Shown here in pieces: positions 5,297-19,238 of a stretch of 64,000 bases of DNA. The translations under genes and the position numbers were made by a program. The notes under the pieces were generated by a model. The model saw only the letters and a list, made by a program, of their open reading frames with translations, searched no databases and was not told where the DNA came from. The stretch lies in contig NZ_CH902583.1 of the NCBI RefSeq assembly GCF_000152965.1, forward strand, positions 1,055,002 to 1,119,001. Direction: 5' to 3'. Source of the DNA: Roseobacter sp. MED193 (GTDB lineage: Bacteria > Pseudomonadota > Alphaproteobacteria > Rhodobacterales > Rhodobacteraceae). The stretch's first letter is position 1. Each line of letters begins with the position of its first letter.

Positions 5297-6271
5297 ATGA
5301 CGCGTTTGGTTGCGGATCTTGGTGGCACCAATTGCCGTCTTGCCATTAGCACAGGCCTGGGGCGTCCCCTGGCAGCCATGCAGAGCTACCCAAATGCGGC
5401 CTTCGACAGTTTTCCTGATCTGCTTGGCCAGTATCTAATTGATGCTGGTCAGCCCCGATTTGCCGAAATAGTGATTGCTGTCGCCGGTCCTGTCACAGAC
5501 CGTGCAACGGGGCAAAGCGCGGAGTTGACCAATCGGGGCTGGCAGCTGGACTCGCAAGAACTGTCCCAATCAATGGGAGAGATCCCAGTTCATTTATTCA
5601 ATGACCTTAGTGCCCTGGGACACAGCCTTGCCGATCTGGAGACAGGCGATCTGGCCATAATCCAACCAGAGGACAGCACCGCGCCTTTGGCACAAAAACT
5701 GGTCATCGGGATTGGCACCGGGTTTAATGTCAGCCCTGTGAGTGCCACCCCCTTGGGCGTCAGCTGCCTGAAATCCGAATACGGCCATGTCGCCCTGCCG
5801 CTCGATCTACACCAGGCTCTAGTCGCGCAGATTGGCGAGAAGGCCCACGCCTTCAAAACCGTGGAATGCTGTTTTTCCGGCCGTGGCTTTGCGGCCCTTC
5901 ATGCGGCCTTTGCGCCCGAGGCCAAAGCACAATCTCCCGCTGATATCATAGCGGATTCTGATAGGGCGCAGACCAGGGCCTTTCTCCACTTTTATGCCGA
6001 TCTCCTGGGCCAGCTGAGCCGTAATCTGAGGAAGGGTTTTTTGCCCAGTGGCGGGCTCTATTTTGCCGGATCCGTTGCCCGTAACCTGCTGGTGGGGGGC
6101 GCTAAATCCGCGTTTCTACACTGCTACAACCAGCCTGATCCGCTCCTCCCCGATCTCACGCCGCCTGTCTATTGCATACTGGATGATGCCGCGGCTCTAA
6201 AGGGCTGTGCAAAATTCGCTTTCCGCTCCCCCCCGAAAAAAACCAGAGCTAGCCCCCTGCGCCAGCCCTGA
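5297..6271 (+). CDS. glk: Glucokinase
   Basis: Phosphorylates glucose to glucose-6-phosphate with ATP. The 324-residue protein shows the phosphate-binding motif DLGGTN (residues 7-12), the catalytic FNDLSALG region (D103, equivalent to the catalytic Asp of E. coli Glk) and the glycine-rich IGIGTGFNVS. One base separates it from the transporter ATPase stop, tying sugar entry to phosphorylation. Its last 23 bases overlap the 3' end of the convergent NRPS gene, and the C-terminal tail (SPPKKTRASPLRQP) is basic and unlike the rest, so the frame may have been extended into the neighbour. Confidence 0.88.
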   Translation: MTRLVADLGGTNCRLAISTGLGRPLAAMQSYPNAAFDSFPDLLGQYLIDAGQPRFAEIVIAVAGPVTDRATGQSAELTNRGWQLDSQELSQSMGEIPVHLFNDLSALGHSLADLETGDLAIIQPEDSTAPLAQKLVIGIGTGFNVSPVSATPLGVSCLKSEYGHVALPLDLHQALVAQIGEKAHAFKTVECCFSGRGFAALHAAFAPEAKAQSPADIIADSDRAQTRAFLHFYADLLGQLSRNLRKGFLPSGGLYFAGSVARNLLVGGAKSAFLHCYNQPDPLLPDLTPPVYCILDDAAALKGCAKFAFRSPPKKTRASPLRQP

Positions 6272-9200
6272 TGGCCTGCTGGGTTCTGTCGAACCAGTTC
6301 TGGATCTCTTCCGTGACCAGAGGACCTTTTACCGCCGCCTGCAACAGCGGAAATGCTCGGTGAAATTGCTCTTGTCTGGCGAAACAAAGGCCCAGGTAGG
6401 CCCAGATATCGGCCCGATAGCCACAGTGCTTTCCAACGTGTTGCAGCACTTCAATCGCTTTTGGGACGTGGCCCAGCTGTAACAGCCAATAGCCATAGCA
6501 GACCTCCAGATCCCGAATGAGCCCTGCAGTCGGGCGCGCAGCCGCGCGGGCGGCCTCGATCTCTGTCAGGGCAGCCGCTGGGTCATCCAAGCGCAACAAA
6601 GCCTGCGCCCGCGCCGCATGCCAGGCCAGCAGCGGCACGCCCTTTGGCTGCTCTGTGGGTTGACCCGCCAGCCAATCGGTCAGCACGCCTGTGCCTTCTT
6701 CCTCCAGATCTGTCGCCAGATTATCCGCAACCAAGGCAGACCAGGCATGAGTTGGATGCGCACGGCAACTGGCGCGCAATAGATCCAGTGCGGCTTTGGG
6801 CTGGTTTGTGGCCAAAAGATGCGAGACCCGGCGCCGCTCAGCCGCGCCTGGCTGCGGGGTCAAAACGCAATCGGGAGGGCGCTTGGTCAGCAGTGCCTGC
6901 ATGGTCAGGTCGGCGCGGCCATGCAAAAGCTCGTCGTGATGCCCCGGCAGCAGATAGACGTCGACCTCCCCCTCAACGAAGTCCTCCCAACCATAGCCAA
7001 TCATCGCCAGCGACAACAGATTGTAGCGGTCCCCGCGCAGCAGTCGCATATTGCCGTCCAAAGGTTCCAACAGGTGATCACGCCGCAATGCCTCTGCCTG
7101 CAGCCCCTGTTCTCCCCAGTTGGAATCCGGTGGCCCCAGCTTGCGAAATACCGGCCCGTTGTCGATCACACAGACACTCGCCGCGGGGCTGTTCAGCCCG
7201 GCAAGCTCGCGCGCGGTTTCAAAGGCTTCGGCCCCGCCATAGGAAAATCCGGCCAGATGCAGCTTTGTGTTCGGAAAGCCATGATCCAGAACCCTGGCAT
7301 AATACCGCGCCTGATCTGCAAAACTGCGCTGCCCACCTTCAGCCGCCGCCATTGGTCGCTGCAGGATAAAGCAACCTAGATCCTGTGGCGCCTGTTGCAT
7401 CATCATCGTCAGGTTTGGCCCGCTCGGCACCAAGCCCGGCAAAAAGATAACGGGCTCGCTCCCGCGCCCCTCTTTTGCGTTCACCAGCGCCTGGTGCAGA
7501 TCCTGCGGAGGCGTTTTCGCCAAGAGCGCCTGTAAACCGCGTGGCGTAGGATCGCCAAAGGCCGTTGCAACCGGCAAATGACAGCTGGTGCGCTCTCGAA
7601 TGCGGGCAAGCAACGCAATCAGCAAAAGTGAGTTGCCACCAGCGGTAAAAAAATCCTGATCCAGAGCGGCAGGCGCCTGCCCCAGAACCTGTCGCCAGCC
7701 GTCTAGGATAGCGGGAGCCAAATCGGGTTGCAGCGCCGCCTCCTGATCCGCGAGATTTTTGGAGCCTGCAAAGATCTGTTGGGCCCGCTGCACCAGCGCC
7801 CGACGGTCTATCTTGCCCGAGGCTGTCAAGGGCAAGGTCGCACAAGGAGCGATCAAGCCAGGAACCCAAGCTGAAGGCAGATTGCTCCGCAGGTAGCGGC
7901 GCACCTGTGGCTCTGAGCCCTGATCTTGCGGGATGTAAAAGGCAGCCAATATGGTCTTACCAGCGATCGGGGCCGCAAAGACAGCCGCGCCAAGGGTCAA
8001 TCCGCTGGTCAGTAGAAGGTTTTCAATCTCACCCGGTTCGATCCGTTGGCCACTGATTTTCACCTGATCATCCAACCGTCCGGCGCAGCTGGTGGTCCCA
8101 TCTCCGCCCATGCGACCCCGATCCCCTGTGCGATACCAGCGCTCTGTCTGATCAGGTTCTTTCTCCCAGAGAAAACTCTGCGCTGTCTGCTCTGGCGAGT
8201 TTAAATAGCCCAGGGCAAGCCCGGCGCCCGAAATCCAGATCTCCCCCAACATTCCCGGCCAGACCGGCTGCCCCAAAGGGTCCTTGATCGCAAGGCTATA
8301 GCCGGGAAAGGGCTGCCCGATCTGCGATCCCACGGGGCGTTTTGCCGCCTCATCGAACATCTGGGAGGGAATTTCCTGCCAGGTGGAAAACACCGTGGCC
8401 TCTGTTGGGCCATACACATTAAAAAGCCGTCCCACACGGGGCCGGATTTGGGCGACGAGCTCCGGGTGAACCGTCTCTCCGCCCACCAGCGCCTTGAGCT
8501 GGGGCATTTTGGGTAGCCCCGCTGCAATCAACATCCGCCAGAGCGACGGCGTAGCAAAGAAATGCTGCGGCGCTGTGGCCTCCATAAGCTGTACAATATG
8601 CCAGGGATCGCGCCGCAGCGCCTCTTCGACCAAGATCAGTTCGCCGCCAGTGACCAGCGGCGACAAAACCTCATAGATGATGCTGTCAAAGGTGGTGGCG
8701 CTGCACGACAGCATCCCCTCACCCGGGCGCAGTGCAAAGACCTGCCGCACCCCGGCCAAATGGTTCGCAAGCGCCCGATGCGGGACCGCCACGCCCTTGG
8801 GCGCTCCGCTGGAGCCGGAGGTGAACATCACATAGGCCAGATCATCAGGGGCCAAATCATCAGGGGCCAAATCGTCCGGGGTAAAATCGTCAGGAGTAAA
8901 ATACTCAGTGCCCGACGTCGCCCTAGGGACCCTGTTCCCTCTATCACCAAGTGTCAGTACCGGCATTTCCAACGCCTGTGCCAGATCATCTGGGGCGATC
9001 AGATGCTTTGGCCCGGCCTGTTGCAAGATACGCTTAATCCGCTCCGGTGGATCCAACACCGATAGCGGCACAAAAGCGCGCCCTGCCCGCAGGATACCAA
9101 TCAATGCCGCCACAAAACCAGCCCCACGCGGTAAGGCCAGGGCTATAAGATCCCCTGCGGCGCCCGGCGCCGCCAAAATTGCCTGCGTCCAGGCCGCACT

Positions 9201-10799
9201 TTCCCGCTCCAGATCAGCGTAGCTCCAGTGCAGATCGCCACAGCGTAGCGCGGGTTTCTCCCGGTACTGGGCAAAAGCCCTGGTCAGCAGGTCCCCCACC
9301 AAGGGGCTGGGCGTGACGGCGGGACAGGTCAACACCCCTTGGCTCTCTGCCGTCTCTGCCCCATTCTGCAACAAGGATTCAATCGCGGCTTTGGGCCGTT
9401 TCAATGCGCCTTTGAGTACCGCTATGAAGTGCTGGAATATCCGCGCGGCGGTGGCCGCGGTGAAGCGGTCAGCATTCCCGAGCAGCTCCCCCTCGACGCC
9501 CCCCTCGCAGCGCTCCAGATTCAAAGCCAGCGCAAAGGGGGTAGCGCGCCCAATCTGGGTCAAAGAGTGACTGGAGCACCCAGCAAAAGACAGGCTACGG
9601 GTTGAAAACCCGCGATGGTTCAACACCACCTGAAATGCTTCATGCGAGAGTGCTGTGTGACTGGCAGAAGCGTAAGAGGACTGGTTCAGTAAAGCACTCC
9701 CCTGTTCCAACCCCTTGGTCAATGCAACCTGTTCCGCCTGACAAACCTGTGCAAAACTCGCGCCCTGTATCAGGGCCGTGCGAATGGGGAGAGTCTGTAC
9801 AAAGGCACCTAGCACCCCTTGTAATCCCGGCCCATCGCGGGTCATCGCAGTGTTGCCGATACAGATCTCGCGCTGGCCTGAAATCGCACTCAACGACAGA
9901 CGAAAGGCCGCCAGAAGCACTGCGACAGGCGAGACATGCAGCCCCCCGGCCAGCGCCTCAATAGCGGACCAGGTTTTTGCGTCGATCTGCACTGGAGTGC
10001 TGTTACCTTCGAATGAGGGCGCTGTTGGCGCGGCGAAATCAAAGGGCAGCGCCAGTTCTTCCAGCGGCGACTGATCACGGCTGACCAACACCTCTTCCTT
10101 TGGCATAGCCAAGGGAGGCGCAGGCTGAGCCAAATCCAAGGCATGATCGGCAAAATCAAAAACAGGACGCTCTGGTGCTGAAGCCCCGGCTGTCCCCTCA
10201 ACAGCTGCCCCCCTCCCGGTTATGGCATCGTAGCATTCTCCCAGCTCTTGACAGAATTGCCTCAGGGACCAGGCATCCATGATTGCATGGTGATAGACCA
10301 GATGCAGCACCCAGGCCTGATCGGCGATCCGATAGACCCGCAGCCGCAACAAAGGGTCGCGACCCGTGTCAAAAGCACGCTGACCTTCGCATCCCAAGAT
10401 CGCCTCAATCGACAGATCAGAACAGGTACCTTGTACAGACTGTCGCAGGTCCATTTCGGCAAAATCTACCGCTTTCTCCTCTGAAACACACATCTGTAAG
10501 AGGCCCCGCTTCTCGTACAGGGCCATGCGCAGACAATCGTGCCGGTGGGTCAGCACCATCAGAGCCTGCCGACAGCCTTTGGGATCAAAATCCCCCTCAA
10601 TACGCCATGCGCGGCTAACATTTGCGATGCCTTTTTGCGGCGCCAATTGATCCAAGCACCAGAAATCCTGTTGAGCTTTTGGCGCAACCACCGTGACATC
10701 CCCAGCGGCGCGGCGCGTTTTGCCGTCCAGAGGGTCACGGCCCCTGCCCGCAAGCCGTCGGCGCAATCTGGCCCGCAAATCATTAACTGCAAAAACCAT
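6249..10799 (-). CDS. Non-ribosomal peptide synthetase, C-A-PCP-TE with TPR-like tail
   Basis: A single-module synthetase of 1516 residues. Order: condensation domain (about 35-470; active site HHAIMDAWS at 170-178), adenylation domain (about 500-1010; TSGSSGAPKG at 660-669, TFDS with D705, YGPTE at 796-800, SGKIDRR with K997), carrier domain (FFTAGGNSL, Ser1057), thioesterase (GFSYGG nucleophile Ser1186, candidate His1287/1288 and Asp1213), then about 200 residues of helical TPR-like repeats to the end. The C domain comes first, so the donor must arrive from another protein, most plausibly the carrier domain of the ligase at 12554. It directly abuts the TPP enzyme gene (TAGATG junction). An aligned A-domain code of roughly D-S-Y-F-L-G-V-V-F-K resembles codes for branched aliphatic residues such as Ile (inference). 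The product is unknown. Confidence 0.93.
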   Translation of the reverse strand: MVFAVNDLRARLRRRLAGRGRDPLDGKTRRAAGDVTVVAPKAQQDFWCLDQLAPQKGIANVSRAWRIEGDFDPKGCRQALMVLTHRHDCLRMALYEKRGLLQMCVSEEKAVDFAEMDLRQSVQGTCSDLSIEAILGCEGQRAFDTGRDPLLRLRVYRIADQAWVLHLVYHHAIMDAWSLRQFCQELGECYDAITGRGAAVEGTAGASAPERPVFDFADHALDLAQPAPPLAMPKEEVLVSRDQSPLEELALPFDFAAPTAPSFEGNSTPVQIDAKTWSAIEALAGGLHVSPVAVLLAAFRLSLSAISGQREICIGNTAMTRDGPGLQGVLGAFVQTLPIRTALIQGASFAQVCQAEQVALTKGLEQGSALLNQSSYASASHTALSHEAFQVVLNHRGFSTRSLSFAGCSSHSLTQIGRATPFALALNLERCEGGVEGELLGNADRFTAATAARIFQHFIAVLKGALKRPKAAIESLLQNGAETAESQGVLTCPAVTPSPLVGDLLTRAFAQYREKPALRCGDLHWSYADLERESAAWTQAILAAPGAAGDLIALALPRGAGFVAALIGILRAGRAFVPLSVLDPPERIKRILQQAGPKHLIAPDDLAQALEMPVLTLGDRGNRVPRATSGTEYFTPDDFTPDDLAPDDLAPDDLAYVMFTSGSSGAPKGVAVPHRALANHLAGVRQVFALRPGEGMLSCSATTFDSIIYEVLSPLVTGGELILVEEALRRDPWHIVQLMEATAPQHFFATPSLWRMLIAAGLPKMPQLKALVGGETVHPELVAQIRPRVGRLFNVYGPTEATVFSTWQEIPSQMFDEAAKRPVGSQIGQPFPGYSLAIKDPLGQPVWPGMLGEIWISGAGLALGYLNSPEQTAQSFLWEKEPDQTERWYRTGDRGRMGGDGTTSCAGRLDDQVKISGQRIEPGEIENLLLTSGLTLGAAVFAAPIAGKTILAAFYIPQDQGSEPQVRRYLRSNLPSAWVPGLIAPCATLPLTASGKIDRRALVQRAQQIFAGSKNLADQEAALQPDLAPAILDGWRQVLGQAPAALDQDFFTAGGNSLLLIALLARIRERTSCHLPVATAFGDPTPRGLQALLAKTPPQDLHQALVNAKEGRGSEPVIFLPGLVPSGPNLTMMMQQAPQDLGCFILQRPMAAAEGGQRSFADQARYYARVLDHGFPNTKLHLAGFSYGGAEAFETARELAGLNSPAASVCVIDNGPVFRKLGPPDSNWGEQGLQAEALRRDHLLEPLDGNMRLLRGDRYNLLSLAMIGYGWEDFVEGEVDVYLLPGHHDELLHGRADLTMQALLTKRPPDCVLTPQPGAAERRRVSHLLATNQPKAALDLLRASCRAHPTHAWSALVADNLATDLEEEGTGVLTDWLAGQPTEQPKGVPLLAWHAARAQALLRLDDPAAALTEIEAARAAARPTAGLIRDLEVCYGYWLLQLGHVPKAIEVLQHVGKHCGYRADIWAYLGLCFARQEQFHRAFPLLQAAVKGPLVTEEIQNWFDRTQQAIRAGAGG
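8835..8894. repeat. 15-bp minisatellite (4 copies) inside the NRPS A domain
   Basis: Four tandem copies of a 15-bp unit (GGCCARATCATCAGG-like), with a degenerate fifth to about 8909, encode repeated TPDDL/APDDL pentapeptides at residues about 634-655, immediately before the A3 nucleotide-binding loop. The unit is a multiple of three, so copy-number change would keep the frame. The two central copies are nearly identical, which suggests recent duplication. Confidence 0.85.
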
Positions 10800-12521
10800 C
10801 TAGGCCCCACTTTCGTCGGCTGGGGCCTTCCCAAAACAGTCGGCCAAAGAGACTGAAATGACGGTTGCCCCATCGTCCAACATGGCCGGTGTTAGCGCCT
10901 GGGACAAAGCCCGTTGCAGCGCCTCCGGGGAATGGACTCGCACCCCCCGCGCGCCCCACCCTCGGGCAACCTGCGCATAGTCCACGGTAGCACCATAACG
11001 GACGATATCCGGGCTTTGGGCCGGAAACCATTTATCCTGAAAGCTGGGGCCATTGATCCCGCCATTGTCGGCCACAACGACGATTAGCCTGGTCCCCAGC
11101 CGCTGGGCTGTCTCCAGTTCGCTGGCGGACAGGCCAAAGCCAACGTCTCCCACCAGCGCCACCACCCATTGCCGTTGCTCGACTGGGAGCTGAAGCTGCT
11201 GCATTGCAGCGCCCAGCGCAAAGGGAATCCCCACACCGATGGTCCCATTCTGGCCAGGCGTCACTCTTGAAAAGGGCCTGTGAACCGCCCAGAGGTTATG
11301 GCCGCTGGCTAGGCCAAGCCCACTGTCGATGATTGTCACGGCATTCTCTGGCCCCCAGCGCGCCAGCGCCTCACAGAGCAGGTTCATCTGCCTGGCCTCG
11401 ACATCTGCCTCGGCCTGCTGCCGCAAATTCACAAGGGTCTGCGCGTGGGTCCGGGCTAGGCAATCTACCCACTCTGTACGGCGCGGCTCTGGGCTGGCCG
11501 CTGCAAGTTGGGTCAACAGATCCTCAAACTCAAGGGGAAGCGGATCAATTGGCACCTCTGGGCCCAGCAGGCTGCGGGCGCTAAAGCGCCAATCCAGATC
11601 AGCGCCACAGAGCAGTACATGATCGCAGTTCTGCAACGCCTCTTCCTTTGCCAGGAAAACGCTCAGCCGATGGCCATCAGGCAATATACCGCGCCCCATG
11701 TCGGTGGCCAAAACCGGCAAATCCAGCTCCTCAAGCAGAGCCCGAAACTGGCAGAGCTCATCTGGCGTCGGGGCACCGCCCCAGCGCAGATCCTCGCCAA
11801 GGATCAAAATGGGGCGATGTGAACCGCTCAGCCACTGCGCCGACCCCCTTGGTTTGGGGAGCGGTTTGGGGAGCGATTTCGGGCTCAATTTCGGAATCGG
11901 CGCAGGCAGAGCATCTGGGTGACGCGCGTTCAGAACGCTCAGCCCCACCTCAACAAAAACCGGGCCGCGCGGCCTGCTTCTGGCCTGCTCCAGGGCCAGA
12001 TGGATGCTGGCGGTAAGCGCGGCGCGATCCTGCAGCTGCATCACCGCCTTGCAGCAGGGCGCTGCGGCTCTGGCGCCATCAAAACTCTGAAACAGCGGTG
12101 CGGTCCCTTGGTCCTTCTGCCCTGGCTCTGGCGGCTCGACAACGCCGGCAATCAGGACCATGGGCCACTGGTTACTCATTGCGTCAGACAGAGCCGTGAC
12201 GGAATTGGTCACCCCCGGCGCAGGCGAGCACAGGGCCAGGGCACAAAACCGCCCCGCTTGATAATTATGCGCCATGGCCGCACTCAGGGCGCCGGATTGG
12301 CTGCGACAGCCGACGACCACCAACCCAATTTCGACACAGGCAGCCAGGGTGGCATAAACCGGGTTTCCGGGCAGCGAGTAGACATGGGTGATGCCCCCTG
12401 TTTTAAGAGCCTGCGCAATGGCTTGGTGCCCATTAGGGGCAAGGCGGCGCGCCAGTTTTCTGCGCAATACGGATGGGCGGTTCTTTGGCGCTCCTGTGCC
12501 TGTGGTCGCGTCAATCTTCAT
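10800..12521 (-). CDS. Thiamine-diphosphate-dependent enzyme, oxalyl-CoA decarboxylase/acetolactate synthase-like
   Basis: A 573-residue TPP enzyme with the usual PYR, central and PP domains. The PP domain has the cofactor motif GDVGF (458-462) with DNGG (485-488) about 25 residues later. The spacing and the NGGI context look most like oxalyl-CoA decarboxylases. In the PYR domain the aligned family motif R-H-E-Q reads R73-S74-Q75-S76, so the Glu that activates thiamine appears to be Gln. A Pro/Lys-rich linker lies at about 207-225. I chose the ATG at 12521 because GGGAGA precedes it, rather than a GTG 10 codons upstream. It sits between the ligase-carrier gene (32 bases) and the NRPS gene (0 bases), so it should act in the same pathway. 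The reaction is not known. Confidence 0.85.
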   Translation of the reverse strand: MKIDATTGTGAPKNRPSVLRRKLARRLAPNGHQAIAQALKTGGITHVYSLPGNPVYATLAACVEIGLVVVGCRSQSGALSAAMAHNYQAGRFCALALCSPAPGVTNSVTALSDAMSNQWPMVLIAGVVEPPEPGQKDQGTAPLFQSFDGARAAAPCCKAVMQLQDRAALTASIHLALEQARSRPRGPVFVEVGLSVLNARHPDALPAPIPKLSPKSLPKPLPKPRGSAQWLSGSHRPILILGEDLRWGGAPTPDELCQFRALLEELDLPVLATDMGRGILPDGHRLSVFLAKEEALQNCDHVLLCGADLDWRFSARSLLGPEVPIDPLPLEFEDLLTQLAAASPEPRRTEWVDCLARTHAQTLVNLRQQAEADVEARQMNLLCEALARWGPENAVTIIDSGLGLASGHNLWAVHRPFSRVTPGQNGTIGVGIPFALGAAMQQLQLPVEQRQWVVALVGDVGFGLSASELETAQRLGTRLIVVVADNGGINGPSFQDKWFPAQSPDIVRYGATVDYAQVARGWGARGVRVHSPEALQRALSQALTPAMLDDGATVISVSLADCFGKAPADESGA

Positions 12522-12553
12522 GGTTCTCCCTGCCGCCCAAGCGATGCACACCT

Positions 12554-14425
12554 TCAGACCAAAGCAACTGCTTCAGACCCGACCAAATCCTTCACAGCCT
12601 GTTCCAACTGCTCCACGTCCTGCTCCGACAAAAGGCCCAGCACATAGTGCGACAGCGCAAGCGGCGTTGGATGACGAAAGATCACCGTTGGCGGAATATA
12701 GCAGCCCAGCAGCTCTCCCAAGGTGATCGAGAGCTGAACCCCCAGAATGGAGTTGCCACCACAGTTGAAGAAATTGTCATCCAGCCCAATGCGCTCCAGA
12801 TCAAGCACCTCAGCGGTGAATTCGCACAGGATGATCTCAACGGCGGTTCTTGGCGCGCGAAAAGAGGTGGCGAAATGCGGTTTCAGGCTCTCCCACATCT
12901 GAAGACGCTGGCGCTTTCCAGTGGCGCCCACTGGAATTGCATCCACGATGATGATCTGACTGGGCACCTTGTAATCTATCAGCCGGGTGAAAAGCTGGCT
13001 ACGAATTGCCTCCACCGTCAGCCCGGTCTCACGGTCCAGGCAGACCGCAGCCACAAGATCATCGCCCAGGCTTTGATGCGGCTGCGCAAAAGCCACCGCA
13101 TCCGTGATACCGTCAATGTCCAGCAGGGCCTCATCAATCTCACGCGGGGAGATCTTTTGCCCGCCGCGATTGACGATCTCTTTGCGCCGCCCGGTGAGGG
13201 TCAGATAGCCCTCGGCGTCCACCATACCCAAATCACCAGTCCAAAAGCCGCCCTGCCGGAAGGCCTCGCTATTGGCCTCTGGGTTTTGCAGATATCCCGG
13301 CGTGACAGCGCCGCCCTGTATAACAACGTTGCCGACAGCGTCGGCGCCAATTGGGCGGCCCGCATCATCAAGAATGGAAATGCTGGTGCCCCGTGCTTGG
13401 CCCACGGTGCCCGGTTTGCGCCGCGCGGGCGGCAGCGGGTTCGCCGCAATCTGATGGCTGGCCTCAGTCATGCCGTAGGCTTCGATCACTGGCGCACCAA
13501 AATAGCGTTCAATCCGGGCAATCACTGATGCCGGTAAAGGGGCTGAGGAGGAGCGGATAAAGCGCAGGTTATGCGGCAGCGGCTCTGCGCGCTTTTCCAG
13601 GTGCTGGATCAACACCAAGTGCATGGTTGGCACCGCCGAGAACCAGGTGACTTTGTGGTGTTGTAGACTGTCGACGAACCCATGGGGCTGGAATTTACCC
13701 GCCAGGACCACAGCCCCGCCAGCAACCAAGGCTGCGCCCAGACAGGCCATCAACCCGTGGATATGGAACAGCGGCATGGCGCAGAGCGAGACATCCTGAT
13801 CGCTCAGTTCAAGAGACCCTGCGATATTACGCGCTGAAACCGCGAGGTTCTGCTGGGTCAGCTGCACCATCTTGGGGCGCGCTGTGGTGCCAGAGGTATG
13901 CAGGATCAGCCCAGGCGCAGAAGCGGCCGACTGGGCAGGCAGCGCCACAGGCTGCGGTACCGCGTCTAATAGCCCGTCGTCGATGACCAAACTGGCAACA
14001 CCTGCCGCCGCAATAGCCGCATGAGCGGAAGCGCTAGCGCCCGCCCCCACCAGAACCAAGCCCGGTTGCAGATCCCTGAGGTAGAATAGGAACTCTTCGG
14101 TGCTGTAGTCCGGGTTTAAGGGGGCTGCGACATGTCCATGCAAACAGGCCAGAAAGCCCAGTACAGCATGACGGGCCTGTGGGGCAATGACCGCGATCGG
14201 GGCACCGGGCTCCACCTTGGATGCGTAGATCTCTAGAATGAGCTGGTCCAGGGCGGCAAGGCAACGCGCCCCCGTCAATGGCCCGACCTCTTCACAAATC
14301 AGCGCTGGTTGGTCCAACCGCTGTTTAAGGCCCGCGCGTAACTGTGCGCCAAAATGTACCAACGGCCTCTCCCAATCAAACGAACTGCTGCGGTCAAACG
14401 CCGCGAAAAAGTGAATAAAATTCAA
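12554..14425 (-). CDS. Acyl-CoA-synthetase-like ligase fused to a carrier protein domain
   Basis: A 623-residue fusion. The adenylating part (to about 515) has LHTSGTTARPK (A3), YGMTEASHQ (A5), FWTGDLG, GRRKEIVNRGG and ATGKRQR with Lys504. The segments AAPLNPDYSTEEFLFYL and MTEASHQIAANPLP resemble plant AAE3/yeast Pcs60 oxalyl-CoA synthetases. A carrier domain follows, with DNFFNCGGNSI and Ser559 as phosphopantetheine site. It probably activates a carboxylic acid and loads its own carrier, making the acyl donor for the NRPS C domain (inference). The start is uncertain: no ATG is available, a stop lies immediately upstream, and the first possible codon is the TTG at 14425 with a poor ribosome-binding site. 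The 114-bp gap to the SDR gene is relatively AT-rich and may hold a promoter. Confidence 0.88.
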   Translation of the reverse strand: MNFIHFFAAFDRSSSFDWERPLVHFGAQLRAGLKQRLDQPALICEEVGPLTGARCLAALDQLILEIYASKVEPGAPIAVIAPQARHAVLGFLACLHGHVAAPLNPDYSTEEFLFYLRDLQPGLVLVGAGASASAHAAIAAAGVASLVIDDGLLDAVPQPVALPAQSAASAPGLILHTSGTTARPKMVQLTQQNLAVSARNIAGSLELSDQDVSLCAMPLFHIHGLMACLGAALVAGGAVVLAGKFQPHGFVDSLQHHKVTWFSAVPTMHLVLIQHLEKRAEPLPHNLRFIRSSSAPLPASVIARIERYFGAPVIEAYGMTEASHQIAANPLPPARRKPGTVGQARGTSISILDDAGRPIGADAVGNVVIQGGAVTPGYLQNPEANSEAFRQGGFWTGDLGMVDAEGYLTLTGRRKEIVNRGGQKISPREIDEALLDIDGITDAVAFAQPHQSLGDDLVAAVCLDRETGLTVEAIRSQLFTRLIDYKVPSQIIIVDAIPVGATGKRQRLQMWESLKPHFATSFRAPRTAVEIILCEFTAEVLDLERIGLDDNFFNCGGNSILGVQLSITLGELLGCYIPPTVIFRHPTPLALSHYVLGLLSEQDVEQLEQAVKDLVGSEAVALV

Positions 14426-14539
14426 CTATTCGCCGAGAATTAGGAAATCAAGCGCTCCGTTTGGAAACGCGCCTTTTGCGTTCGAATTGGTTAACAAATC
14501 AGCGCGAATGGGATTAAGCCCGGACCATAGGTTCGCAAG

Positions 14540-15337
14540 TCATCTTTTGCCCGTCGCGTTGATATTGCGCTCCATCAGTGTAGCAAACAGGCCCGGCGAC
14601 AGGCGGTTGAGGATCCAGGAGATCCAGGCAATGCGCCCCACAGGGATAAAGTCCCGGCGCCGGTGCACCCCTTTTAGGATCGCCTGTGCCGCTCTATCGG
14701 GGGTCATGTAATCCACCCCATCCCCGGCAGATCCCGGCCGGGCAATCCCGTTTTCCTGGGCCTCAGACCGACCGATATTGGTGGCGACAAAACTAGGTGC
14801 GGCAATCACAACGCTGACGCCGTGTTGTTTTTCTTCCGAGCGCAGCGATTTAAAGAACCCCTCCAACGCATGTTTGCTGGCGGCATAGGCTGTGCGATGA
14901 AACAGCGGGCTGAACCCGGCAACAGAGGATATCGCCAGATGGGTTCCCTTGCTTCGACGTAGATCGTCCTGCAACGCCTGAGCCATCTCAGTGGCCGCAA
15001 AGTAGTTGATGTCAAAGACTTTGCGATGGGCGACTGGGCTCAGCTCTGCACAGGCCCCAATCCAGGTAATGCCAGCATTATAGATCACCAGATCAATCGA
15101 ATCCTGCTCTTGCCGGATCCGTTGACACAGCGCTGCCAGGGCACTTTGTTCGGTCAGATCACAGCCATAGATCTTCCGTCCCGCCACATCTGGCAGCCCA
15201 TCGAGTACGGGGCCAGGCAGATCTATCAATACGGTTGACCAGCCCGCCTGCCGCAGGCCAGCGTCCAGAGCCAACCCCAGCCCACCTGCACCACCGGTGA
15301 TAATTGCCGTCTTTTTGTGGCTCCTATTTTCGCTCAT
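14540..15337 (-). CDS. Short-chain dehydrogenase/reductase
   Basis: Classical SDR of 265 residues. It shows the nucleotide-binding TGGAGGLG (14-21), NAG (87-89) and the catalytic Ser138, Tyr151 and Lys155 in SSVAGF and YAASK. It is expected to oxidise or reduce an alcohol/ketone with NAD(P)(H). The C-terminal part carries a hydrophobic stretch (IAWISWILNRLSPGLFATL) that may associate with membrane. The ATG at 15337 overlaps the stop of the upstream epimerase gene (ATGA), so it is the last gene of a four-gene coupled operon with FMO, BASS transporter and epimerase. The substrate is unknown. Confidence 0.85.
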   Translation of the reverse strand: MSENRSHKKTAIITGGAGGLGLALDAGLRQAGWSTVLIDLPGPVLDGLPDVAGRKIYGCDLTEQSALAALCQRIRQEQDSIDLVIYNAGITWIGACAELSPVAHRKVFDINYFAATEMAQALQDDLRRSKGTHLAISSVAGFSPLFHRTAYAASKHALEGFFKSLRSEEKQHGVSVVIAAPSFVATNIGRSEAQENGIARPGSAGDGVDYMTPDRAAQAILKGVHRRRDFIPVGRIAWISWILNRLSPGLFATLMERNINATGKR

Positions 15338-16272
15338 AGCCCCGCCGCCTTTTGCCACAGCGCAAAGACCTCAGCGCTGGTCAGATCCGGCACATAGCCA
15401 AACTGTTCCTTCAAGGCACGATTATCCAACACCGGGCGATATTGCAGAAACCGTACTTGATTGGGTCCATAGCGTGATAGCTTCAGCGGATGGGCGATGC
15501 CAAGCGCCAGCTTGAGCAGCCAGACCGGCAGCCGTAGCACTGGTTTGCCCAAAGCCCCTGCCAAATCCGTCACGCCTAGGGCACCGTCTCCGGCAACGTT
15601 GTAAATCCCCTCTGGGCCTTGGGAAATTGCGCGTTGCAGAATACGCGCCAGATCTCGGGTCCAAATAAAAACAAAGGGGCTTTCGCAACCTGCAAGGGCC
15701 AAGAGACGCGGCTTGTGAAAAAGCGCAGTAATCTGGTTTTCCAGCCCTGCGCCTAGCACCGTGCCAACCCGCAGCACCACCTGTTCAAGCTCCGGCACCT
15801 CGGCGCGGGCTTTGGCCAGCATCTCTTCCACCTGACGTTTGTGATCCGAATAGGCGAACTCTGGGTTGCCACGCATCGGATCGCTCTCGACCAGGGGAAT
15901 GGCGTTATCGGCGTGATAGCCATAGGCCGCCCCAGAGGAGGTCACCACCAGGCGCTTGACCCCATGGGCAATGCAGGCGGTCAATACATTGCGCGAGCCA
16001 ATAACATCTACCGCATGAGCAAAGTCGCGCGTCGTTGGCGCAACGATTGAGGCCAGGTGGATCACCACATCCGGACGTTCGCGTCCGATCACCTGATCGG
16101 GATCATCCCCGCGTACATCCAAGGTTTCAAACCGAATACCAGTCGGCAGATCGGCTGGGGGTCGGATATCTGTTGCCACCACCTCATAAGCGCTGTCCTC
16201 AGACTGGGCGAGTTCGCGCAGCAGGGCAGATCCCACATCGCCTGCGGCCCCTGTGATCAGGATTTTTATCAT
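15334..16272 (-). CDS. NAD-dependent epimerase/dehydratase family protein
   Basis: Extended-SDR protein of 312 residues with the GAAGDVG dinucleotide motif (8-14) and a YSDHK active-site pair downstream of an SSGAAYG segment. Members act on nucleotide sugars or on sterol-, flavonoid- or lipid-type ketones and alcohols. Start at the ATG 16272, which overlaps the BASS transporter stop (ATGA) and directly begins the Rossmann fold. Two redox enzymes, a monooxygenase and a solute carrier in one coupled operon suggest uptake and stepwise oxidation of a lipophilic acid or terpenoid-like compound; this is inference. Confidence 0.82.
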   Translation of the reverse strand: MIKILITGAAGDVGSALLRELAQSEDSAYEVVATDIRPPADLPTGIRFETLDVRGDDPDQVIGRERPDVVIHLASIVAPTTRDFAHAVDVIGSRNVLTACIAHGVKRLVVTSSGAAYGYHADNAIPLVESDPMRGNPEFAYSDHKRQVEEMLAKARAEVPELEQVVLRVGTVLGAGLENQITALFHKPRLLALAGCESPFVFIWTRDLARILQRAISQGPEGIYNVAGDGALGVTDLAGALGKPVLRLPVWLLKLALGIAHPLKLSRYGPNQVRFLQYRPVLDNRALKEQFGYVPDLTSAEVFALWQKAAGL

Positions 16273-17171
16273 CGCTTCGCCTCCCGACGGGACATGATCT
16301 GCGCCAGGCAGAGGCCCGAAATCGCATGCCATATGCCCCAGAGCGCTGCGACCACAGCCATGCCGCCCAGCCCGTCAAAAAAGCCAAAGATCAGCACCAA
16401 CCCAAGGCCAGAGTTCTGAATGCCCGTTTCAATGGTGACGGCCCGACGGTCATAGTCAGACAGGCCGGCCAGGCTGGCACAGCCATAGCCGGCGGCCAAT
16501 GCAATGGCATTATGCACCACCACCAGCCCGCCCACATAGGGGGCAAACTGTAAAAAGAAGCTCCAGTTTGCCGCAAGCGCCAGCACCACAAAGGCCAGAA
16601 AGATCAGCATCGAGAGGTTTTGCATCGGCCTACGCACCCGGTCAGCCAATGTCGGCTGACGGCTGTTGAGGTAAATCCCCAGGATCAGCGGCAGCACCAA
16701 CATCAAGGACACGGTGATCGCGATCTGAACCGGATCAATCTCCACCCGGTTCAAGATCTCCCGCGTAGGCGCATAGAGCTGCCCCCAAAAGGCAATATTG
16801 AGCGGGGTGATCAGGATGGCGCCGACGGTGGCAAAGGCGGTCATCGAAACAGACAGCGCCGCATTCCCGCCGGCACGGTGGGTGATAAAGTTTGAGATAT
16901 TGCCGCCCGGACAGGCGGCAACCAGGATCAGACCCAGCGCAATTGAGGCCCGAGGTTCGACCAGAAGCACCAAACAAAAGCTGAGCGCGGGTAGCACCAA
17001 GAACTGCGAAATCAGTCCGGTCAGAACCGGTTTAGGGGCCCGCGCCAGCCGGGCAAAATCGCTGAGCTTCAGATCCAGCGCGATGGAAAACATCACAATG
17101 GCCAAAATGGCATTCATGACCAGCAGGCTGGAGCCGCTGAAGTTGAGAACAACCCGGTCCAGATCGGTCAT
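16269..17171 (-). CDS. Bile acid:sodium symporter (BASS) family transporter
   Basis: Inner-membrane protein of 300 residues with about nine or ten hydrophobic segments. It contains the BASS-type motif CPGGNISNFITHRAGGN and, later, ETGIQNSGLGL, both hallmarks of the family. Members usually take up organic anions such as bile acids, pantoate or other carboxylates with sodium. It overlaps both neighbours by four bases (ATGA), showing tight coupling to the FMO upstream and epimerase downstream. The substrate is probably whatever the operon enzymes modify. Confidence 0.87.
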   Translation of the reverse strand: MTDLDRVVLNFSGSSLLVMNAILAIVMFSIALDLKLSDFARLARAPKPVLTGLISQFLVLPALSFCLVLLVEPRASIALGLILVAACPGGNISNFITHRAGGNAALSVSMTAFATVGAILITPLNIAFWGQLYAPTREILNRVEIDPVQIAITVSLMLVLPLILGIYLNSRQPTLADRVRRPMQNLSMLIFLAFVVLALAANWSFFLQFAPYVGGLVVVHNAIALAAGYGCASLAGLSDYDRRAVTIETGIQNSGLGLVLIFGFFDGLGGMAVVAALWGIWHAISGLCLAQIMSRREAKR

Positions 17172-18514
17172 TTGCGACCTCCTGTCAGGGCCCTTATCCA
17201 GCCAGTCACGGCTTTGCGGTAGGTGGCCTTGTCAACATAATAGGCCATGCGCGCCAATTTGAGGTAGTTCATGCCCCCGGTGGCCCGCTCAAAACCCGCA
17301 GATTTCTCCTGTTTTAGCCGCGCTGCGCCAGCATTGCCCTCCTGCAACCCATTGATATAGCGGGCGACCATTTCTGCCTGCTCGTGACGTCCCTGCCAGC
17401 CCAGGCCGGAAGCCTCAACCATGCCCAGCACAAAGAGATCATCGCGGCTGGGATGCATGCAGTTGAGGTAGAGATGCGGTGCAGCGCCCTGCCAGTTCAA
17501 CAGCTCCTGATCGATAAAGGGATAGTGCAGCAAATAGCCTGTGGCGGTCAGTATCATGTCATACTCGGCTTTCGCCCCGTCGGTGAAATACACCGTTTTA
17601 CCATCGATATGATCAATATCCGGTCGCACCTTCAGGTCGCCGTGGCCCGCGTGGAACAGGATCAGCGAGTTGACGACCGGATGGCTCTCATAGAGCGCGT
17701 AATCCGGCTTGGGGAAGCCGTATTTCTGCGGCTCCCCCACGAACCATTTCAAAATCATGCCATCGACCCGGCGCTTTAGCCACATGGGAAGGCGAATGGC
17801 GCCGCCCATGGTATCGGCCGGTTTGCCAAAAACATATTTGGGCACAAAGTAATATCCGCGCCGCATGGAGATGTCGCAGCTCACCCCGTGGTGAATGGCA
17901 TCCACTGCGATATCGCAGCCCGAATTGCCTGCTCCCACGATCAACACCCGCTTATCGGCAAATTGCCGGGGGTCGCGGTATTGAGCTGCATGGATCATAT
18001 CGCCGTCAAACTGGCCCTTGAAGCTGGGCATATTGGGCTCCGCCAGGGTGCCATTGGCGATCAACACACCTGCAAAGACTTGGCTCTGTTCCTGCCCCTC
18101 GCCGTCGCGCCAGGTCAGACGCCAACCCGCGCCGCTGTCGCCAAGGGGTTCACAAGACAGCACCTCACAGTTGAAGGCGTAATCTTGGTAGAGGTCATAA
18201 TGCCGGGCAAAATCGCGAAAATAGCGCCGCATCTCCCGGTGCGAAGGGTACTCCGCAACCTCCTCTCTCATGGGAAAGTCGTCAAATTGAGTCATCTTTT
18301 TGGACGAAATCAAATGCGCGCTTTCATACATCGTCGAATGGGGCGCATCGATATCCCACAACCCACCCACATCGGAATGCAGCTCAAACCCCTGAAAGGG
18401 AATACCCTGCTCTTTCAGAACCTTCGCCATAGCCAGCCCCATGGGCCCCGCGCCAATCAATGCAAAGCTCCCCGCCGCGGCGCCGTTGAGCGCCCCGCTT
18501 GCCTGTGCCGTCAT
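17168..18514 (-). CDS. Flavin-containing monooxygenase (FMO/BVMO family)
   Basis: A 448-residue FAD- and NADPH-dependent class B monooxygenase. Visible: FAD motif GAGPMG (21-26), the FMO fingerprint FKGQFDGDMIHAAQYRD, and the NADPH-binding VLIVGAGNSGCDIA. It would oxygenate a soft nucleophile (N or S) or a ketone. The ATG at 18514 was chosen because GGAGG lies just upstream; an in-frame ATG-rich stretch 7 codons earlier lacks that. It is first in its operon and divergent from the TetR gene at 18594, across a 79-bp promoter region. Confidence 0.88.
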   Translation of the reverse strand: MTAQASGALNGAAAGSFALIGAGPMGLAMAKVLKEQGIPFQGFELHSDVGGLWDIDAPHSTMYESAHLISSKKMTQFDDFPMREEVAEYPSHREMRRYFRDFARHYDLYQDYAFNCEVLSCEPLGDSGAGWRLTWRDGEGQEQSQVFAGVLIANGTLAEPNMPSFKGQFDGDMIHAAQYRDPRQFADKRVLIVGAGNSGCDIAVDAIHHGVSCDISMRRGYYFVPKYVFGKPADTMGGAIRLPMWLKRRVDGMILKWFVGEPQKYGFPKPDYALYESHPVVNSLILFHAGHGDLKVRPDIDHIDGKTVYFTDGAKAEYDMILTATGYLLHYPFIDQELLNWQGAAPHLYLNCMHPSRDDLFVLGMVEASGLGWQGRHEQAEMVARYINGLQEGNAGAARLKQEKSAGFERATGGMNYLKLARMAYYVDKATYRKAVTGWIRALTGGRK

Positions 18515-18593
18515 TATCTTTCCTCCCATGTGCACCCTGGGGGTGCGCTTTTAGATTGAACGACTGTTAAAAATAGGGCAAGCTGTTTCTGAA

Positions 18594-19238
18594 ATGACTG
18601 GTAAAGTGCAAGAAAATCAAAGGCAACGCGCGCCCAGCAAGCGCTCCCTGGCCACCCGCGAGCGCATTTTCGATGCCGCAGAACAGCTGTTTTCTGAGCG
18701 AGGATTCGAAGGAGCTTCGGTGCGGGACATCGCCAAGGCCGCTGGCGTGCAGGGGGCGCTGGTCAATCATCACGGTGGCAGCAAGGAAACGCTGTTTGCC
18801 ACTGTAGTTGCACGGCGGGCGGATGAGCTGGCCCAACTGCGTCAGCAGGCCCTGGCGCAGGCGAAGGCCGCCGGACCGCTGACTCTGCGCCAGATTCTGA
18901 CCTGCTTTATTGAACCCTTTATCGACAAGACCCGCAACGGAGGCCCCAGCTGGGCCGCCTATGGACGGCTGATCGCCCATGTCTCGTCGGATAGACGCTG
19001 GCAGCACATTGCCCAAAGCTGCTTTGACCCAACCGTGAAGTTGTTCCTGGCAGAGATTTCAGCGGTATTGCCAGGAGCCTCGCAGCAAAAGATCAGCGCG
19101 CATCTGGTCTTTATGGTCTCTGCCATGTTGGCGCTCTGCACCTCGCGCTGGCGTATTGCCGGCCTCGCCGATGGCGAGACCGCAGAAGATCTAACGGAGG
19201 AACTGCTGGCCTTTTGCGAGGCAGGTTTCAGGTCCTAG
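18594..19238 (+). CDS. TetR-family transcriptional regulator
   Basis: 214 residues. The N-terminal helix-turn-helix is clear: RERIFDAAEQLFSERGFEGASVRDIAKAAGV (quoted in part, with ASVRDIAKAAGV as recognition region), then LVNHHGGSKETLF. The C-terminal ligand-binding half is helical. It is divergent from the FMO operon with 79 bp between the starts, so it most likely represses that operon and itself until a substrate is present. The gap contains AAC-GACT-GTT near 18560-18570 as a weak candidate half-symmetric site. It is convergent with ugpQ, 26 bp away. Confidence 0.88.
   Translation: MTGKVQENQRQRAPSKRSLATRERIFDAAEQLFSERGFEGASVRDIAKAAGVQGALVNHHGGSKETLFATVVARRADELAQLRQQALAQAKAAGPLTLRQILTCFIEPFIDKTRNGGPSWAAYGRLIAHVSSDRRWQHIAQSCFDPTVKLFLAEISAVLPGASQQKISAHLVFMVSAMLALCTSRWRIAGLADGETAEDLTEELLAFCEAGFRS

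Follow-up and report, generated by a model that had tools for sequence, protein, structure and literature searches.

Three linked genes in Roseobacter sp. MED193 encoding a ligase-carrier fusion, a thiamine diphosphate-fold protein that lacks the activating glutamate and a small nonribosomal peptide synthetase

In the enterobactin system, a stand-alone enzyme (EntE) activates an acid and places it on a carrier (EntB-ArCP), after which a nonribosomal peptide synthetase (NRPS) module with condensation (C), adenylation (A), carrier (PCP) and thioesterase (TE) domains takes over (EntF). In oxalate metabolism, the oxalyl-CoA synthetase AAE3 (Pcs60) is paired with a thiamine diphosphate (ThDP) enzyme, oxalyl-CoA decarboxylase (OXC). 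Nearly every ThDP enzyme conserves a cofactor-activating Glu, according to PMC13327070. In PMC3534367 this residue is Glu in 94% of superfamily members, and Val, found in 3%, is the mark of the glyoxylate carboligases, the named exception family. In grass pea, parts of PMC9935904 describe how AAE3 and BOS put activated oxalate on the amine of an amino acid to form beta-N-oxalyl-L-alpha,beta-diaminopropionic acid (beta-ODAP). This report concerns a stretch of 64,000 nucleotides from Roseobacter sp. MED193 (genome 4.67 Mb), positions 1055002-1119001 of a 4.1-Mb contig and hereafter the window, in which a minus-strand trio of genes at 6249-14425 encodes a ligase-carrier fusion (P0003), a ThDP-fold protein (P0002) and a C-A-PCP-TE synthetase (P0001). 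Judged from sequence, the trio is tentatively read as a minimal two-carrier line of the EntE/EntB/EntF kind that would make an N-acyl amino acid with a ThDP-family partner lacking the activating Glu, a reading to which we give somewhat less than an even chance.

A first-pass annotation of the window had described three adjacent minus-strand genes here, and the open reading frames (ORFs) and Pfam domains bear this out: the domains of all three proteins lie above the Pfam cut-offs and the genes are spaced by 0-2 bases. It knew of no described system of this make-up, and none was found among the open-licence PMC papers listed, none of which brought oxalyl-CoA together with a nonribosomal peptide synthetase and a condensation domain. 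The features of the trio, assigned with Pfam, are as follows.

6249-10799, minus strand: NRPS P0001, 1516 amino acids, with Condensation, AMP-binding, AMP-binding_C, PP-binding and Thioesterase domains
about 10679-9372, minus strand: C domain of P0001, residues 41-476
about 9281-7812, minus strand: A domain of P0001, residues 507-996
about 7709-7533, minus strand: PCP of P0001, residues 1031-1089
about 7469-6900, minus strand: TE of P0001, about residues 1111-1300, limits set by eye
about 6872-6252, minus strand: C-terminal tail of P0001, about 200 residues (1310-1516), with a weak TPR_14 match
10800-12551, minus strand: ThDP-fold protein P0002, 583 amino acids, related to 2-hydroxyacyl-CoA lyase (HACL) and OXC, with TPP_enzyme N, M and C domains
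12554-14425, minus strand: ligase-carrier fusion P0003, with AMP-binding, AMP-binding_C and PP-binding domains

In the proposed line, the ligase, whose domains are seen directly, would adenylate a small carboxylate, presumably oxalate or a close analogue as a first guess, and load it onto its own carrier. P0002 would act on, or chaperone, the ligase-bound acyl group prior to condensation; since it lacks the activating Glu, any ThDP chemistry would have to run without this residue, as in the glyoxylate carboligases with their Val. The C domain of P0001 would then move the acyl group onto an amino acid activated by the A domain, probably an aliphatic, Ile- or Leu-like one, and the TE would free the N-acyl amino acid. 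Whereas the enterobactin system shares the logic of acid activation on a carrier followed by a C-A-PCP-TE module, the ligase of the trio resembles oxalyl-CoA synthetases and is fused to its carrier, and a ThDP-fold protein stands in between.

The first-pass annotation had likened the ligase to oxalyl-CoA synthetases, and this held: the top PDB matches of P0003 are oxalyl-CoA ligases (5ie0, 1.1e-95; 6qjz, 1.2e-93; 8aff, 2.2e-92), the first malonyl-CoA synthetase following at 5.9e-56. The match to 5ie0 spans residues 49-508, and the motifs HIHGL, AVPTMH, RSSS and EAYGMTEASH are similar by eye to those of 5ie0. P0003 differs from AAE3/Pcs60 in that it carries a fused carrier (PCP, residues 534-595, about 12826-12641) and belongs to an NRPS unit, its substrate being presumed from similarity. 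The top NCBIfam model is of the FadD7 type (361.6 bits against a cut-off of 650). Translation probably starts at the TTG at 14362, preceded by GGGAGAGG, rather than at the TTG at 14425; homology starts at residue 24. The C-terminal tail of the ligase is acidic, with a charge of -5, -4, -4 and -4 in four genomes, and a charge of -4 is reached by 5.0% of 602 background proteins (predicted with ATG starts, at least 150 amino acids long, from 37 stretches). With the window's own genome counted, P0003 has matches at E<=1e-70 in 97 of the 385 class genomes searched and at E<=1e-85 in 66 of the 295 family genomes (one per genus). A match from Rhizobium (H25) is annotated as malonyl-CoA synthase. A catechol siderophore system, that is, EntE/B/F proper, was rejected because the best P0003 matches are not 2,3-dihydroxybenzoate ligases and because the 16 translated ORFs, which make up part of the window's genes, include no evident siderophore gene.

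The suggestion in the first-pass annotation that the carrier of the ligase is the natural acyl donor for a synthetase beginning with a C domain is supported. P0001 has the signature residues of its C, A, PCP and TE domains (HHAIMDA, FDSIIYE, GGNS, GFSYGG, D1213 and H1288). The C domain is the sole Condensation match in the whole genome. The code of the A domain was read as D-S-Y-F-L-G-V-V-F-K, with one of the ten positions differing among five genomes (His for Tyr in G010); by specificity rules in GrsA numbering, this code would be Ile- or Leu-like. Partial matches were obtained to the EntF model (257.9 bits) and the MxcG model (334.7 bits), whose equivalog cut-offs are 2400 and 2300. The genome also holds two ORFs resembling phosphopantetheinyl transferases (PPTases), one of 177 amino acids with an ACPS match and a second of 253 amino acids.

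The best PDB match of P0002 (phmmer) is RuHACL, 6xn8 (1.3e-47), followed by other HACL/S and OXC entries. An AlphaFold2 model built from 20 sequences (mean pLDDT 82.7, pTM 0.85) was used, a model from a three-sequence alignment (pLDDT 37.6) having been discarded; Foldseek returned HACL 6xn8 at rank 1, then 8vzi, with OXC from rank 11 (TM about 0.7, 21-26% identity). Both searches place P0002 nearer to HACL than to OXC. It lies below the curated cut-off in all 25 NCBIfam models listed, of 49 matched, and scores 151.3 bits with the OXC model TIGR03254 (cut-off 739.4) and 154.8 bits with the HACL model NF058623 (cut-off 600). PYR, central and PP domains are present, together with a GDx(25)N Mg/diphosphate motif that is retained in five of five subfamily members (window, G003, G008, G010 and G314, the last from another genus). 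The position of the activating Glu is Gln85 (about 12299-12297) in P0002; it is Gln also in G003, G008 and G314, Arg in G010, and Glu in all 16 other homologues compared (17 loci, L006-L021 and L081, with 16 usable frames, L019 being excluded). Four of these 16 (L008-L011) follow the pattern of OXC and have each of the two Glu and each of the four Arg.

Passages of PMC13327070 give the AcHACL-Q128 position as Glu for OXC alone and Gln for HACLs; P0002 has the HACL-type Gln155 here, the OXC-specific Glu (E121) being absent, and the Phe-Gln pair of HACL (ApbHACL 116-117) is present as F154-Q155. For ApbHACL/S, parts of PMC11271303 assign R156/R276 to ADP binding and R260/R400 to acyl-CoA binding, in a numbering with a chain offset of 3 that we infer from Q117 being chain residue 120. 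The ADP-binding pair is replaced by P194 and D318 in P0002, the latter site being Gly or Pro in G003 and G008, and R260/R400 align with K302 and H418, which are basic but not Arg; in G314 an Arg aligns with H418, and the counterpart of K302 is ambiguous in the alignment. Canonical OXC membership was rejected (no activating Glu, no OXC Glu, model cut-off missed), as was canonical HACL membership (Glu and the ADP-binding Arg pair absent, cut-off missed). Glyoxylate carboligases share the absence of the activating Glu, as PMC3534367 describes; they have Val where P0002 has Gln, and the similarity is weaker (1.7e-19 to about 3e-17). P0002 differs from HACL and OXC further in a basic N-terminal extension (in this genus) and in being encoded with carriers. 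P0002 and its relatives appear to form a distinct subfamily of the ThDP family, in which the activating Glu is replaced mostly by Gln within a signature CR[ST]Q.GA.

These residues bear on the decarboxylation or C-C bond formation put forward in the first-pass annotation. Spelled out, that model would have the ThDP enzyme turn an oxalyl-S-carrier into a formyl-S-carrier in the manner of OXC, or join a formyl group to a carbonyl compound in the manner of HACL, so that the NRPS would make an N-formyl or N-2-hydroxyacyl amino acid. The pair of ligase and ThDP protein does parallel the AAE3 and OXC pair, and the fold, the Mg-diphosphate motif and the HACL-type Gln155 are retained in P0002. However, the activating Glu is missing in five of five members (four Gln, one Arg), the ADP-binding Arg are gone and the OXC and HACL equivalog cut-offs are missed, and we consider this chemistry unlikely. 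Of the likeness to OXC, the related fold and the motif stood, whereas the protein proved nearer to HACL and fell short of the OXC cut-off; OXC-type chemistry finds no support as it was written, with Gln at both Glu positions and no HACL ADP-binding Arg pair.

The three genes were found to travel together, a point on which the first-pass model could have failed. In G314 (L175; 4.8 Mb, 100% complete), a ligase-carrier fusion (616 amino acids), a ThDP protein (526) and a C-A-PCP-TE synthetase (1529) are encoded in the same order on the same strand by overlapping ORFs. Restriction of the trio to the genus of the window was therefore rejected, the second trio having been found by a family search with the ligase; because the gene set recurs in synteny, chance origin is not at issue. 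Identities to the window are 42% over 447 columns for the ligase, 29% over 548 for the ThDP protein and 26% over 1271 for the NRPS. The motif at the Glu position is CRTQTGA in G314 and CRSQSGA in P0002, and in a tree of 20 ThDP proteins G314 joins the window group (support 0.988) as sister to the OXCs. Since Gln is common to both sides of this deep split, it is not mere decay.

The N-termini of P0001 and P0002 share a basic helix, LRARLRRRL and LRRKLARRL (residues 28-36 of P0002). Within the first 45 residues, the strict motif LR..L.[RH][RH]L occurs in two of the 602 background proteins, P0001 and P0002 themselves, and a looser form in four; the strict motif is also satisfied in G003 and G008. 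Docking through these helices is hypothesized from sequence. A more specific proposal is that NRPS initiation has enlisted a new ThDP subfamily (CR[ST]Q.GA), performing carbanion chemistry without Glu on a carrier-tethered acyl group and docking, in this genus, by a synthetase-type N-terminal helix; we regard this as possible, if somewhat doubtful. The shared helix would also suit a P0002 that is a dead scaffold or gatekeeper presenting the carrier of the ligase to the C domain, the product being an amino acid N-acylated with oxalyl or a similar group, as in plant AAE3 and BOS for beta-ODAP. Oxalyl transfer to an amine has a precedent in parts of PMC9935904, although grass pea uses a BAHD protein and neither carriers nor a ThDP protein. 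Gln or Arg in place of Glu also fits a scaffold, as does G010 (L024:9053-10105), where an in-frame loss took away the central domain of the ThDP protein (about residues 182-416 of P0002). What remains is a naturally occurring ThDP-fold protein of two domains that has Arg in the activating-Glu position; its frame is still open (dN/dS, the ratio of nonsynonymous to synonymous substitution rates, 0.23-0.32 against three others) despite this loss. However, the GD...N Mg/diphosphate motif retained in all five members would be superfluous for a pure scaffold, a role that we hold to be rather unlikely.

Twelve genomes of the genus were searched, and the trio is intact in three (the window genome, G003 and G008), altered in four and absent from five; it is read as an optional element that adjoins a flavin-containing monooxygenase (FMO)/transporter cassette in the genus and has been lost or damaged several times. 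In G004 (L135:6541-11373), a single frame of 1610 amino acids runs through ligase sequence as far as about residue 312 and continues as NRPS sequence from near residue 211; this in-frame deletion removed the carrier, the ThDP gene and the His motif of the C domain, and the remaining A, PCP and TE regions appear to be under constraint. In the sister species G006 and G011, broken fragments are all that survives of the ligase and NRPS genes (L158:7280-9479 and L159:7787-10439), with no ThDP remnant at these loci at E<=1e-4. G007, G001 and G009 have the cassette without the trio, G007 being a clean absence. FMO orthologues occur in ten of the 12; neither G002 nor G005 has a Condensation match or an FMO match at E<=1e-60, and their ligase matches are of just 32-34% identity. 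A tree of four cassette proteins joins G000, G003, G008, G006, G011, G004 and G007 (support 1.0), with G010 joining next (support merely 0.53) and G001 and G009 outside. One gain and several losses of the trio is the simplest reading, though not a proven one. These losses would suit a relic that is idle in the strain of the window, with three of 12 intact, the G004 fusion, the G006 and G011 remnants, the G007 absence and the G010 domain loss; however, in the window, G003, G008 and G010 the frames are open and the motifs intact, with dN/dS of 0.12-0.34 between these genomes, and we hold such a relic to be highly improbable. Pairwise dN/dS (NG86 method) in the trio is 0.12-0.18 for the ligase, 0.20-0.32 for the ThDP gene and 0.22-0.34 for the NRPS, well below 1, and in the cassette 0.05-0.09 for the FMO (three genomes), 0.06-0.17 for the transporter, 0.09-0.16 for the epimerase and 0.15-0.24 for the short-chain dehydrogenase/reductase (SDR), all of these values being rough because many dS values exceed 1.

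The trio forms the last three genes of a seven-gene minus-strand run, the upstream part of which, together with its TetR regulator, had been overlooked in the first-pass annotation.

14452-14470, minus strand: weak hairpin resembling a terminator, situated between the SDR and ligase genes (hairpin scan)
14540-15358, minus strand: SDR oxidoreductase, cassette gene (Pfam and cassette synteny)
15334-16332, minus strand: NAD-dependent epimerase/3-beta-HSD-like, cassette gene (Pfam and cassette synteny)
16269-17171, minus strand: SBF/BASS-family transporter, cassette gene (Pfam and cassette synteny)
17168-18535, minus strand: FMO, cassette gene (Pfam and cassette synteny)
18594-19238, plus strand: TetR regulator with C-terminal domain PF17939, divergent from the cassette (Pfam, NCBIfam); top NCBIfam match PsrA-like, below cut-off

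Given the hairpin, the trio may form a separate transcription unit. Two terminator-like sites were found in 14300-14800 against 0.7 +/- 0.8 expected, the second one within the SDR gene, and a sigma-70 promoter scan of the same interval returned zero sites. Of the 295 family genomes, 37 have an FMO match at E<=1e-60, which is at >=72% identity in 33 (window included) and at <=42% in four. At 20 of the 32 other orthologous loci, those inspected, TetR, FMO, transporter, epimerase and SDR stand in one order throughout (the L078 epimerase is split over two frames), and no ligase-carrier or ThDP gene lies near the cassette at E<=1e-15, the L060 contig stopping 241 bases past the SDR; L064 has an NRPS-like match (25%) beyond TetR on the far side. 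No cassette of this make-up was found described in the open-licence PMC literature. Contiguity, a common strand and a common position in four genomes would agree with a single seven-gene pathway, in which the FMO, epimerase, SDR and transporter would serve to build or modify the NRPS product and to export it. However, the cassette lacks a visible trio at 20 of 20 inspected loci of other genera and in G001, G007 and G009, the hairpin separates the two, and G314 has the trio yet is missing from the FMO hits at E<=1e-60 (its inclusion in that search follows from the same draw of 295), so that the trio seems independent of the cassette; a single pathway is very unlikely. At a 21st locus, in G174 (L177:6-6567), a ligase fragment resembling oxalyl-CoA synthetases (46%) faces the SDR end of the cassette; it is cut by the contig end, and the match stops short of any carrier.

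When the ThDP alignment was searched against 295 genomes of the family and 398 of the phylum, matches were reported at E<=1e-60 only, so that G314 could not have been revealed. A genome-contig scan confirmed two ThDP loci, L080 and L081, the latter a 22% match with Glu, and plasmid searches with P0002 (825 records) and the G314 ThDP protein (11 records) gave none at >=60% identity. In the family ligase search, two further matches extend through the carrier, G301 and G314. The ligase-carrier fusions of G301, G662, G615 and G643 were rejected as trios, with no adjoining ThDP gene by tblastn with P0002: that of G662 is a single protein in which A, PCP and C stretches each occur twice, that of G615 has a weak GDSL-like match below cut-off, that of G643 a TE, and that of G301 adjoins a P450. 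For further ligase-carrier fusions on a Gemmobacter plasmid (H22), a Sphingobium plasmid (H60) and a Roseomonas plasmid (H65), the annotation likewise shows no adjoining ThDP gene. Another type of ligase-carrier fusion, of 873-912 amino acids, was observed in Alphaproteobacteria (L176:7413-11356, L138:7122-10983 and L164:9908-12529); the first adjoins a P450, the second has an internal TE and an ATP-grasp neighbour, and the third adjoins unnamed genes.

Several observations weigh against the two-carrier line as proposed. Stand-alone ligases, mostly with 42-50% identity to P0003, are common in Alphaproteobacteria, and oxalate is a first guess from overall similarity, which by itself leaves the substrate unproven because such ligases are widespread. 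The domain loss and Arg of G010 are the pattern that would be expected were catalysis unimportant. The helix motif was defined from the same two proteins that it then retrieved, is not satisfied in G010 and, on inspection by eye, was not recognized in G314. The trio of G314 was retrieved through the ligase only, 379 bases of contig precede its ligase gene, and between the tails that follow the TE in the window and G314 synthetases no homology was found. Furthermore, the second PPTase-like ORF is found genus-wide, irrespective of the trio.

The role of P0002 would lie between catalysis without Glu and scaffolding. A second natural ThDP subfamily without this residue, with Gln and linked to carriers, would test the reach of the glutamate rule directly, and a starter-unit chemistry would be added to small NRPS lines. 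The three species with an intact trio, together with close relatives that have lost it, offer a ready comparison for finding the product.

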